DNA from: Propionibacteriaceae bacterium
GTDB taxonomy: Bacteria > Actinomycetota > Actinomycetes > Propionibacteriales > Propionibacteriaceae
DNA length: 36,613 nucleotides
Assembly (NCBI GenBank): GCA_031265875.1
Contig: JAISCA010000032.1
Span: 1 to 36,613, forward strand
Reading direction: 5' to 3'
Part shown: positions 32,311-36,294 of the stretch, one piece after another
Layout of the letters: each line of letters opens with the position of its first letter
Numbering within the stretch: the stretch's first letter is position 1
The notes under the pieces: model-generated
What the model was told of the DNA's origin: nothing
Databases searched by the model: none
Seen by the model: the letters and a program-made list of their open reading frames with translations, nothing else
Translations under genes and position numbers: made by a program

Positions 32311-32383
32311 GTCCCCATCGTCTAGGGGCCTAGGACACCGCCCTTTCACGGCGGCAGCACGGGTTCGAATCCCGTTGGGGATG
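32311..32383 (+). tRNA. tRNA-Glu (anticodon TTC)
   Basis: A full cloverleaf can be drawn: acceptor GTCCCCA against TGGGGAT (one G-U pair), anticodon stem CCGCC/GGCGG around CTTTCAC with TTC at 32345-32347, and a T-arm with GGTTCGAAT. CCA is not encoded. Confidence 0.95.
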
Positions 32384-32468
32384 CGAGGTGGACCGAGCGG
32401 GTGACGGGCCTGGGGCTCATCACCTAGTCGGCTCCGCGTCAGAACTAGCTCTCAGCCGTCCGCTGGGA

Positions 32469-32474
32469 TATAGT
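32469..32474 (+). promoter_or_regulatory. -10 box before tRNA-Asp
   Basis: TATAGT, 41 bases before the tRNA-Asp gene. It suggests a separate promoter for the Asp-Phe pair. Confidence 0.4.
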
Positions 32475-32515
32475 TCATCGGGCTGGTCCGCCAGTCTCAA
32501 GGTCCTAGCACCTAG

Positions 32516-32589
32516 GGCCCCGTAGCGCAGTTGGTTAGCGCGTCGGCCTGTCACGCCGAAGGTCGCGGGTTCAAGTCCCGTCGGGGTCG
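32516..32589 (+). tRNA. tRNA-Asp (anticodon GTC)
   Basis: Acceptor GGCCCCG against CGGGGTC (one G-U pair), anticodon stem TCGGC/GCCGA around CTGTCAC with GTC at 32550-32552, and a T-arm with GGTTCAAGT. CCA is not encoded. Confidence 0.95.
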
Positions 32590-32604
32590 CCGAGAGCATC
32601 ACCC

Positions 32605-32678
32605 GGCCAGGTAGCTCAGTAGGTAGTAGCGCATCCCTGAAAAGGATGAGGTCGCCGGTTCGACCCCGGCCCTGGCCA
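32605..32678 (+). tRNA. tRNA-Phe (anticodon GAA)
   Basis: Acceptor GGCCAGG against CCTGGCC, anticodon stem CATCC/GGATG around CTGAAAA with GAA at 32639-32641, T-stem GCCGG/CCGGC. It starts 15 bases after tRNA-Asp. CCA is not encoded. Confidence 0.95.
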
Positions 32679-32735
32679 CGAACGAGGCCGAGCTGTGTCC
32701 GCTTTCAGCGGACCGCGCTCGTTCGTCCTTCATTC
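32679..32735 (+). terminator. terminator of the tRNA unit
   Basis: CGAACGAG (32679-32686) pairs with CTCGTTCG (32718-32725), and inside it GTCCGCT-TTC-AGCGGAC (32697-32713) forms a perfect seven-base-pair hairpin. A T-rich stretch follows. It begins immediately after tRNA-Phe. Confidence 0.7.
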
Positions 32736-33330: not shown

Positions 33331-34923
33331 TTACGGGTTCACGCTGATGTGGACGTGGTCGATGTGGTTCTCGGTGTCGGAGCCGCGGTCGGCCATCCAA
33401 CGCCAGCCCTCTCTGCTACGGGCCACGGACCAGATGTGTTGATTGAAGATGACGTAGTTGATGTTCAAGGAGACCGCTCGCTCCACGAAGAAGGCCGCGA
33501 TCTGCTCACCCAAGGCCCGGTTGTTGCGGTAGTCGGGCAACATGATGTCGACCGCCCGGCCCATGTCGTGGTCGCCCACGCCGGTCCGGTAGGCCTGGCC
33601 GTAGTAGGTGTAGATCTGGGGGAAGTTGGCTTGGGACAACCTCACCACTTCGGTCGCGTACGGGGTCAGACCCTGCAGGCCGACCGAGCCGCCGGTGTTG
33701 ACCAAGGTCGGTTTGGTCTCGGACAGGTAGTCGCCGGAGACCCAGCGCGTGGTCCCGCCGTAGATGATCTGGTACCAGCCGCTCTCGGTCACCCCGGTGA
33801 TGTCGACCGCCGTGCCGCCGTTGATCAGGCCCACCTTGGTGCTGGAGACCGAGGGCTGGGTACGGACGTTGAGGTTGGTCGTGGTGTAGAGCTGGCCCAC
33901 CGCCACGGCCCCGGAGCCGCCGCCGGGAGCGGGCGCCGTGACTTCGGCCAAGTACTTGGCGTTGACCCAGCGGATCTCGTCGTGCCAGACGATTTGGGCC
34001 ACGCCGTTCTCCTCCAGGCCGGTGATGTCGACGATGGTGCCGGTCGGGATGTCGCCGTAGTCGTAGAAGTCAGCCGCCGAGGAGCTACGCAGCATCAGCG
34101 CGGTGGTGGCGCGGCGCTGACCCACCACGGCGGGCAGAGCCGGGGTCTCGGGGGTCGGCTCAGTCGTCTCCGGGGGAGTCTCCGGATCGGGCTCCGTCGG
34201 CGTCGGCTCGGTCGTCGGCGGCGTCTCAGGCGGTGTGGTCTCGGTCGGCGGGGTCTCAACCGGCGGGTCCACCGGCGGTGGCGTCTCGGCCGGGGGAGCC
34301 GGCGGCTGAGTCGGTTCAGTCGGTTGGGCCGGATCAGTGGGCTGGGTCGGTTCAGTGGGCTGGGCGGGTTCGGTCGGTTGGGCCGGTTGAGTGGGCTCGG
34401 TCGGCTGGGCCGACGACTCCAACTTGATCCAGGAGGTCGAGACCCAACGTTGGGTCGATCCCCAGACGATCTGGGAGAAGCCGTTCGAAGTCACGCCGGT
34501 CAAGGTCACAGCGGCCCCGTAGGGCAGCACTTCGACCCGGCTGTGGCTGGTCGAGGGGCCGACGCGAACGTTCAGAGCGGCCGTCGTGCGGGCCTGGCCG
34601 GTCGGGCCGCTGCCCAGCGACGGGTTGGCCCCGGAGGAGGTGAAGTACTGGCTGGAGACGTAGCCGGGGCGGCCGTGATAGTCGACTGGGGTCCACCCGT
34701 CGACCGAGGGGCCGGTCGCGTCGATGGTCCAGCCCCAGGCCACGTAGCCGATGATGGCCCGCGCGGTCGAGGGGCCGGAGCGGACGTTGACTGTGGTGGT
34801 GGCCCGGATCGGTTCGGCGGCCTGGGCGTTCGCACCCATGACGAGGCCGTCGAGTCCTTGGGCGGCCAGCACCAGGCTGGCCACTGCGGCCACCATGGTG
34901 GCGACCCGTTTGGTCTGTTTCAC
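33331..34923 (-). CDS. secreted SH3-domain protein with an M15-like C-terminal domain
   Basis: 530-residue exported protein, probably a peptidoglycan peptidase. A signal peptide (about 1-35, ending near ANAQA) is followed by two bacterial SH3 domains marked by VNVRSGPST and LNVRVGPSTS, a linker of roughly 90 residues rich in Pro, Thr and Glu with repeated QPTEP units, two more SH3 domains (LMLRSSS, LNVRTQPS), and a C-terminal domain with DHDMGRAVDIM and HIDHVHIS. The last two motifs supply the His, Asp and His zinc ligands expected of LAS/M15 D,D-peptidases. The GTG at 34923 is chosen because AGGAAGG lies seven bases before it and the signal peptide starts there; the in-frame ATG at 34983 lies in the leader. 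The SH3 domains would hold it to the cell wall. Confidence 0.85.
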   Translation of the reverse strand: MKQTKRVATMVAAVASLVLAAQGLDGLVMGANAQAAEPIRATTTVNVRSGPSTARAIIGYVAWGWTIDATGPSVDGWTPVDYHGRPGYVSSQYFTSSGANPSLGSGPTGQARTTAALNVRVGPSTSHSRVEVLPYGAAVTLTGVTSNGFSQIVWGSTQRWVSTSWIKLESSAQPTEPTQPAQPTEPAQPTEPTQPTDPAQPTEPTQPPAPPAETPPPVDPPVETPPTETTPPETPPTTEPTPTEPDPETPPETTEPTPETPALPAVVGQRRATTALMLRSSSAADFYDYGDIPTGTIVDITGLEENGVAQIVWHDEIRWVNAKYLAEVTAPAPGGGSGAVAVGQLYTTTNLNVRTQPSVSSTKVGLINGGTAVDITGVTESGWYQIIYGGTTRWVSGDYLSETKPTLVNTGGSVGLQGLTPYATEVVRLSQANFPQIYTYYGQAYRTGVGDHDMGRAVDIMLPDYRNNRALGEQIAAFFVERAVSLNINYVIFNQHIWSVARSREGWRWMADRGSDTENHIDHVHISVNP

Positions 34924-34951
34924 GACGAAACCTTCCTGCTGTTGTGGTGGC

Positions 34952-35022
34952 GTCACGGGACACCTCGGCCCGCCCCGTCTCAATTGGGCGGCGGCGCCGA
35001 TTCAAAATGCTTCAGTCGTGAC
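34952..35022 (-). promoter_or_regulatory. candidate structured 5' leader of the SH3 peptidase mRNA
   Basis: Between the predicted transcript start near 35018 and the GTG lies a leader of about 95 bases. GTCACG at its 5' end (35017-35022) can pair with CGTGAC (34952-34957), enclosing an inner CCGCCC/GGGCGG helix. I could not match it to the ydaO (c-di-AMP) consensus. Confidence 0.35.
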
Positions 35023-35140: not shown

Positions 35141-35494
35141 ATGGCTGTCGATATCTCCGATGATGAATTCGAGGACTTAGTCGCTGAAGCCCTCGACTCA
35201 ATTCCTCCGAGTTTCTGGGAGAGGGTCGATAATTTGGTCGTCCTGATCGAACCTGAGGCTCCCGAGTCCGACCCCGACCTGCTCGGTCTGTACGACGGAA
35301 TCTCCTTGTCAGAGCGAGATACGTCGTACGGCATGGTGCTGCCGGACCGGGTCCTGGTGTTCCGTGAGTCGCTGAAGCGATTCTCTCAAAATCGGGCCGA
35401 CTTAGCCGAGCAAGTGGCGATCACGGTGGTGCATGAGATAGGCCATTTCTTCGGCTTCGAAGACGACGATCTAGATGAATTGGGTTGGGGCTGA
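35141..35494 (+). CDS. zincin-like metallopeptidase family protein (PF06262 type)
   Basis: 117-residue acidic protein of the small actinobacterial zincin family (formerly DUF1025). The zinc-binding helix is HEIGHFFGFEDDDLDELGW at 98-116, with His98, Glu99 and His102. The N-terminal part (FEDLVAEALDSIPPSF) is characteristic of the family. No signal peptide is present, so it is cytosolic. Whether it is a true protease is unknown. The start is fixed by the -10 box. It converges with the next gene, 53 bases away. Confidence 0.87.
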   Translation: MAVDISDDEFEDLVAEALDSIPPSFWERVDNLVVLIEPEAPESDPDLLGLYDGISLSERDTSYGMVLPDRVLVFRESLKRFSQNRADLAEQVAITVVHEIGHFFGFEDDDLDELGWG

Positions 35495-35547: not shown

Positions 35548-36234
35548 TCAGTCCGAGGCCGCTATCGCGCCGTCGATAATCGCCCAACTCTGGGCTTGGG
35601 CCGACACCCAGACCGCCGGTCGACCCAATGAATCCGGTCCCAACCAGCCGGCCCGCAACTGGCTGGTCTCGACCACGCTGGCGCCGACCGCCATGGCCGC
35701 CACCGCCCGGGCGCTGGGGCCAGGGCAGCGCACGGCCAGACAGTCCAACCGGCCGGACAGGGCATTGACCGACAGGGTGTCGAGGCTGGCTGGGTCGAAG
35801 CCATCGGCCACCACCACCAGCCCGCAGTCCAGACGGCGAGCCTCTTCGATCGGGGCCAGCAGCTCCCGGAAGGAGCCGATCCGTTCGGCCACCAGCACCA
35901 GCGGCCGCCACAGCACCGCCCAGCGGGTATCCGGATCGGTCACGAAACGGTCCCTGGCCCAACCGCCCTCCAAACTGGTGGACTTCGCGATGGCCTGTTC
36001 CAACCGTTGACGCTGGTCTGGGGTCAGCGGCTGGCCGGCCCGGGCCTGGTCGAAAGCGTGGGTTGGCACGTAATGGGGTTTGCCTCGGTCTGGCTCCAGC
36101 CCTGGCACCACCCGCTCCGGCGGTTCGGCCAAGGCCGCCCGCCGCCGTAAACGATTGGTCCGGTCGACCCAGGCCCCGCCCAGCAGCGCCACCAGGGCGA
36201 GAAGGGCGACCCCCCCTAGCACCGACCAATCCAT
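35548..36234 (-). CDS. membrane-anchored GroEL apical-domain-like protein
   Basis: 228 residues. One TM helix (about 5-23) is followed by DRTNRLRRR, so by the positive-inside rule the rest faces the cytoplasm. Residues 97-205 follow the apical domain of GroEL: FVTDPDTRWAVL against FVTDTERMEAVL, then ELLAPIEEARR, LVVVADGFDPASLDTLSVN against LLIIAEDVEGEALATLVVN, LSGRLDCLAVRCPG against IRGTFKVVAVKAPG, and a segment matching ILTGG. The final AIIDGA recalls TIVDGA at the edge of the apical domain. The equatorial ATPase domain and its GDGTTT loop are absent, so it cannot fold proteins by the ATP cycle. It may hold or recruit substrates at the membrane. The comparison is from memory of GroEL sequences. 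Residues 24-95 have no clear match. The ATG at 36234 has no ribosome binding site. Confidence 0.75.
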   Translation of the reverse strand: MDWSVLGGVALLALVALLGGAWVDRTNRLRRRAALAEPPERVVPGLEPDRGKPHYVPTHAFDQARAGQPLTPDQRQRLEQAIAKSTSLEGGWARDRFVTDPDTRWAVLWRPLVLVAERIGSFRELLAPIEEARRLDCGLVVVADGFDPASLDTLSVNALSGRLDCLAVRCPGPSARAVAAMAVGASVVETSQLRAGWLGPDSLGRPAVWVSAQAQSWAIIDGAIAASD

Positions 36235-36294
36235 GTCCCACAGTCTGCCAGCCCCAGATCACGCTCTCGTGGCTTGGGCGGGCCGGGAGCCTCC

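Follow-up and report, generated by a model that had tools for sequence, protein, structure and literature searches.

Can the apical domain of a chaperonin, the part that binds unfolded chains, be of use to a cell when it stands alone? The usefulness of such a domain has so far been explored with engineered, laboratory-made fragments. Here we describe a gene that raises the question in nature. It lies in a 36,613-nucleotide stretch of DNA (the window) from a Propionibacteriaceae bacterium, positions 1 to 36,613 of contig JAISCA010000032.1 in assembly GCA_031265875.1. Its product, which we call the TM-apical protein, joins a single transmembrane (TM) helix and a tether to the apical domain of GroEL (Table 1). 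It seems that an apical fragment with boundaries nearly identical to those of the engineered ones has arisen by evolution, been retained and been tied to the membrane.

A GroEL apical domain without the ATPase

Sequence matches and the predicted fold agree that the protein contains the apical domain of a Group I chaperonin (GroEL/Cpn60). NCBIfam GroEL models match residues 80-181 of the window protein (best 7.9e-12), and its best match among PDB chains is 1srv, the isolated apical domain from T. thermophilus (1.1e-9). A profile of 27 orthologues improves the best PDB match to 1.2e-24, for T. thermophilus GroEL, and reaches E. coli GroEL (1aon) at 1e-19, placing profile positions 80-220 on chain residues 182-331. 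All 27 orthologues, each taken alone, also match a GroEL model. Together the NCBIfam, PDB-profile and per-member matches rule out a chance resemblance. Pfam gave no domain for the window protein, only Metal_resist at E 0.48, which we take as chance, and at E 0.01 none of the 27 family members had a match.

The equatorial ATPase and intermediate hinge domains are absent, the matches spanning only GroEL ~174-335 while residues 1-70 are taken up by the TM helix and tether. No NCBIfam GroEL score exceeds 44 bits, whereas the cut-offs begin at 352. Nor does the chain hold a lipid-kinase domain; its 228 residues comprise the TM helix, tether and apical domain alone. The domain limits, 84-221 or GroEL 191-335, fit the minichaperone limits of GroEL 191-336/345, and TM-apical proteins end a median of 5 residues past GroEL 333. 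Its computed architecture, predicted fold and conservation identify the TM-apical protein as a Group I chaperonin apical domain that stands alone. An earlier note, made from the letters of this DNA, had claimed an N-terminal TM helix with a basic, inside-facing flank followed by a GroEL apical domain lacking the ATPase; the profile and structure comparisons bear out the domain, and the charges described below favour the topology.

The flank that follows the TM helix carries more positive charge than the N-terminus in 44 of 45 distinct orthologues, and because of this difference the apical domain should lie at the cytoplasmic side of the membrane. Asp24 and Tyr55 are invariant across the 27 proteins of alignment A1, from which this invariance is taken, as the rows of alignment A4 were cut at a Tyr and conserve Tyr55 by construction (L030, with a short tether, was excluded from A4). 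From residue 24 to the position of GroEL G198 the tether has a median length of 70 residues (range 51-191, 45 sequences). In one orthologue (L009:1396-2538, minus strand) it has grown to 191 residues through Pro/Asp/Glu-rich near-repeats.

Upstream of the gene (window 36242-36250, minus strand) and of its orthologues a TGnCANN[CA]T-like element is conserved, in most cases 6-7 nucleotides before the start codon. With orthologue starts picked by script as the start codon closest to profile position 1, 36 of 45 orthologues have a CANN[CA]T that ends 5-12 (mostly 6-7) nucleotides upstream of it; shuffled sequences gave a mean of 1.3 and a maximum of 5 of 45. The usual -10 form is TANNNT, from which CANN[CA]T differs, and the element is perhaps a leaderless extended -10. 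A conserved hexamer at this short distance supports the start and suggests that the transcript is leaderless.

Distribution, descent and selection

Among 197 genomes of the same family, at least 136 in at least 21 of 29 genera carry a TM-apical match outside GroEL frames, the genome figure being a lower bound counted by hand down to E 3.3e-28. Most of the matches in the 21 genera run over nearly the full profile, from the TM helix to the C-terminus, so that the layout described in the earlier note proved to be conserved. A 22nd genus (g4; G021) carries a divergent copy. For the other seven genera (g2, g11, g13, g14, g22, g26, g27) no TM-apical match is found among the matches listed; G028 (g11) and G108 (g14) each have a third match beyond those listed, which makes absence in the family unsure. 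Named relatives include Micropruina, Enemella, Friedmanniella, Microlunatus kandeliicorticis and Propionibacteriaceae metagenome-assembled genomes. At E 1e-28, a threshold that would miss weaker orthologues outside the family, the full profile matches 70 of 245 genomes sampled from the order and 2 of 246 sampled from the class, all within the protein's own family. The N-terminal profile A4 likewise gives strong matches only there. Its weak matches elsewhere, at best 1.0e-5 in 293 order genomes and 2.4e-5 in 246 class genomes, fall in long frames and are taken for other TM helices, the frames themselves not having been inspected.

A tree of 20 TM-apical proteins with 21 GroELs of the order and that of E. 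coli places all the former on one side of a single branch with support 100/100. This branch measures ~2.4 changes per column (0.22 + 2.19 either side of the midpoint root). The TM-apical proteins form one clade apart from both GroELs, although 11 of these 20 sequences sit on long branches and nothing in the tree shows which GroEL was the ancestor. In the window's own genome two full GroELs, L002 and L003, lie ~19 kb apart on one contig (G000:C51), one with a His-containing tail and the other with a Gly-Met tail. A phage or plasmid origin was considered and rejected: tblastn gave 10 phage and 27 plasmid records, and in none did the match reach 80% of the query. The 20 of these 37 records that were listed have coverage of 36-50% and, where annotated, are GroEL, the others being without annotation or feature.

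The gene is under purifying selection, with Nei-Gojobori ratios of nonsynonymous to synonymous change (dN/dS) of 0.31, 0.20, 0.20, 0.43 and 0.44 in five pairs. That it might be a GroEL fragment in decay, or a frame that is not a real gene, is hardly credible: other open frames do overlap it on both strands of this GC-rich window, but the profile matches in at least 21 genera, most of them near-complete, these ratios, the promoter-like hexamer and the separate clade already contradict it.

A partly kept groove and a proposed function

How much of the peptide-binding groove remains? The limits of helices H and I in GroEL follow PMC4973282, and groove positions were compared with E. coli GroEL. 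N265 is Asn in 45 of 45 orthologues and in five more divergent ones (L108-L112), and of 138 positions it has the highest information content. The hydrophobic share is 96% at L234, 100% at L237 and 100% at V264. Thr occupies the T261 position in 39 of 45 and Phe the F204 position in 42; an acidic residue stands at E257 in 34, and at Y199 42 sequences have W, L, Y, F or M. The plurality residue equals that of E. coli at 9 of 15 groove positions and at 36 of 130 others (p 0.017). At inter-subunit or salt-bridge sites, here taken to be R197, K207, E209, K245, E255, R284, R285, R322 and K327, it is kept at 1 of 9 (Fisher 0.27). On these alignments the groove is partly kept and the ring contacts may be gone, neither statistic being strong.

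We propose that the N-terminal helix and flexible tether would hold the apical domain at the cytoplasmic face of the membrane, where the groove between helices H and I would bind a segment, extended or amphipathic, of a single partner protein or a few such proteins at the membrane. Binding would need neither ATP nor a closed chamber, as in the engineered minichaperones, and release would be passive. Three things lead us to infer ATP-independent peptide binding at the membrane: the retained floor of the groove, the location and, by analogy, minichaperone biochemistry (PMC2695268 and PMC4973282). With Asn265 and that floor retained but polar residues mostly in place of the outer Y203, V263 and I270, a narrow ligand set would be expected: the protein would serve particular membrane or exported proteins as a receptor or holdase, without the promiscuity of GroEL. 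A membrane-held, stand-alone apical domain that binds few partners in its H/I groove is our best explanation as a whole, with a probability of roughly 0.55. The earlier note had offered a natural membrane-bound minichaperone or a peptide receptor; the membrane-bound apical architecture stands, and either function remains an inference from a groove that is only partly kept. A bolder version, in which the protein would be the first natural minichaperone, anchored in the membrane, catching parts of membrane and exported proteins as they emerge or while unfolded, independently of ATP, and established in one bacterial family alongside two full GroELs, is possible but rather doubtful.

Several points weigh against groove binding. 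The GroEL hydrophobics are mostly gone at Y203 (D/R/E), V263 (E/A) and I270 (T/R/K; hydrophobic in 24%), and the R268 position is mixed. The excess of conservation in the groove is marginal, the 15 positions averaging 2.44 bits against 2.0 overall (P 0.042; P 0.051 for 8 core positions), and within the same block (195-278) the identity to E. coli is 9 of 15 against 23 of 69 (Fisher p 0.078). In all five pairs the TM and tether part has a lower dN/dS than the apical part. The family-specific W212, W323, W331, Y/W311 and C320 (GroEL numbering) are among the seven most informative positions, and a surface other than the groove may be the working one. It is also possible that N265 might be kept for folding instead of binding.

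Neighbouring genes and alternative explanations

The strongest alternative is that the TM-apical protein serves as a scaffold or assembly adaptor through a non-groove surface, for instance by joining DUF202 (YidH-like) membrane proteins as subunit or partner, its chaperonin origin being mere ancestry. The conserved family-specific positions would suit such a role, and a CCT-like apical domain within PIKfyve gives a precedent (PMC2846930). A DUF202 gene lies on the same strand downstream at 11 of 28 loci, and a second at 7 of 28, mostly adjoining the TM-apical gene; in L096 and L102 the two overlap by 4 nucleotides if the frame's first start codon is taken. In one draft genome they form a single unbroken frame of 375 residues (L013:1492-2616, plus strand), a possible in-frame fusion. 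DUF202 matches occur in 18 of 49 chosen genomes: 9 have the match no more than 150 bases from the TM-apical one, one more has it ~3 kb away, and in 8 it lies elsewhere. The other 31, including the window's own genome, show no DUF202 match, yet at least 22 of them carry the TM-apical gene (23 with the divergent copy of G021), which rules out DUF202 as a general partner. The position of N265 as the single most informative site also speaks against an adaptor, and we consider this explanation unlikely. E. coli yidH has been linked to H2O2 sensitivity, NADPH and iron, and its overexpression did not lower cellular D-alanine, according to published work; neither observation was used for a mechanism.

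The groove might instead dock the cell's own chaperonin by binding the GroES mobile loop, and so bring GroEL-GroES or its clients to the membrane. We think this improbable. A single apical domain without ring avidity would bind GroES weakly, and several residues around the groove are polar. For docking speak the two GroELs in the same genome, the fact that helices H and I also bind GroES (PMC4973282, PMC2695268) and the naming of N265 as a GroES-binding residue (PMC2741606).

The earlier note also asked whether neighbours are conserved, which holds in part. Besides DUF202, with its limited spread, a zincin metallopeptidase gene is found at 19 of 28 loci, on the opposite strand in 18 of those, and a cluster containing the SH3 protein at 24 of 28. 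We do not claim that the zincin neighbour shares the function of the TM-apical gene. The C-terminal part of the SH3 protein has no Pfam assignment and recalls M15-like peptidases; its gene is syntenic with the TM-apical gene at many loci.

Table 1. Features of the TM-apical gene and its surroundings in the window.
Feature	Window positions	Strand	Remarks
TM-apical protein gene	35548..36234	-	228 residues, ATG start, TGA stop; orthologues align from start
Transmembrane helix, residues 4-23	36166..36225	-	Predicted N-out/C-in by charge; model helix spans 3-36
Basic flank and tether, residues 24-70	36025..36165	-	Family motif D-R..R-R, PPxRxIPG, PxY(L/V)
Extra helix, residues 72-84	35983..36021	-	Modelled with confidence; directly precedes apical domain
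Apical domain, residues 84-221 (GroEL 191-335)	35572..35985	-	Profile matches, predicted structure
Helix H equivalent, residues 122-134	35833..35871	-	L126 = L234, I129 = L237, E130 = E238
Helix I equivalent, residues 148-160	35755..35793	-	T153 = T261, V156 = V264, N157 = N265
Codon of invariant Asn157 (GroEL N265)	35764..35766	-	45/45 orthologues
-10-like hexamer CAGACT	36242..36247	-	Ends 7 nucleotides before ATG; probable leaderless promoter
Zincin-like metallopeptidase (PF06262)	35141..35494	+	Convergent neighbour; Pfam family
SH3 protein	33334-34983	-	Three SH3_3 matches; long Pro/Thr/Glu-rich linker
tRNA-Glu, tRNA-Asp, tRNA-Phe genes in series	32311-32679	+	

Comparison with known systems

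The gene is small and testable, and Micropruina, Microlunatus and Enemella are among the named genera that hold relatives. Should client binding prove true, it would show that the binding head of a chaperonin can work without ring, lid or ATP. Among the papers listed from the open-licence PubMed Central literature we found no natural stand-alone Group I apical domain.

The closest counterparts are the engineered GroEL minichaperones (191-376, 191-345 and 191-336; PDB 1kid, 1jon and 1dk7), which have the same fold within nearly the same limits and likewise lack the ATPase and ring while retaining helices H and I. In contrast to these, the TM-apical protein is encoded by a natural gene, carries a membrane anchor and tether, lacks the loop around GroEL 280-284, is mostly polar at Y203, V263 and I270 and has new conserved Trp/Cys positions. 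GroEL/Cpn60, with the two copies that this genome encodes among its members, shares a homologous apical domain (~20-32% identity), whereas the TM-apical protein has no equatorial or intermediate domain, no cavity, and a single membrane helix. The nearest natural reuse that we found is the apical-like domain of PIKfyve/Fab1 (Fab1_TCP), which according to PMC2846930 is most like CCT3 and is likewise found outside a chaperonin. Unlike the TM-apical protein it is eukaryotic, of Group II origin and part of a large lipid kinase. If the TM-apical protein does bind one partner, bacteria would have a counterpart of the apical domain that is built into PIKfyve.
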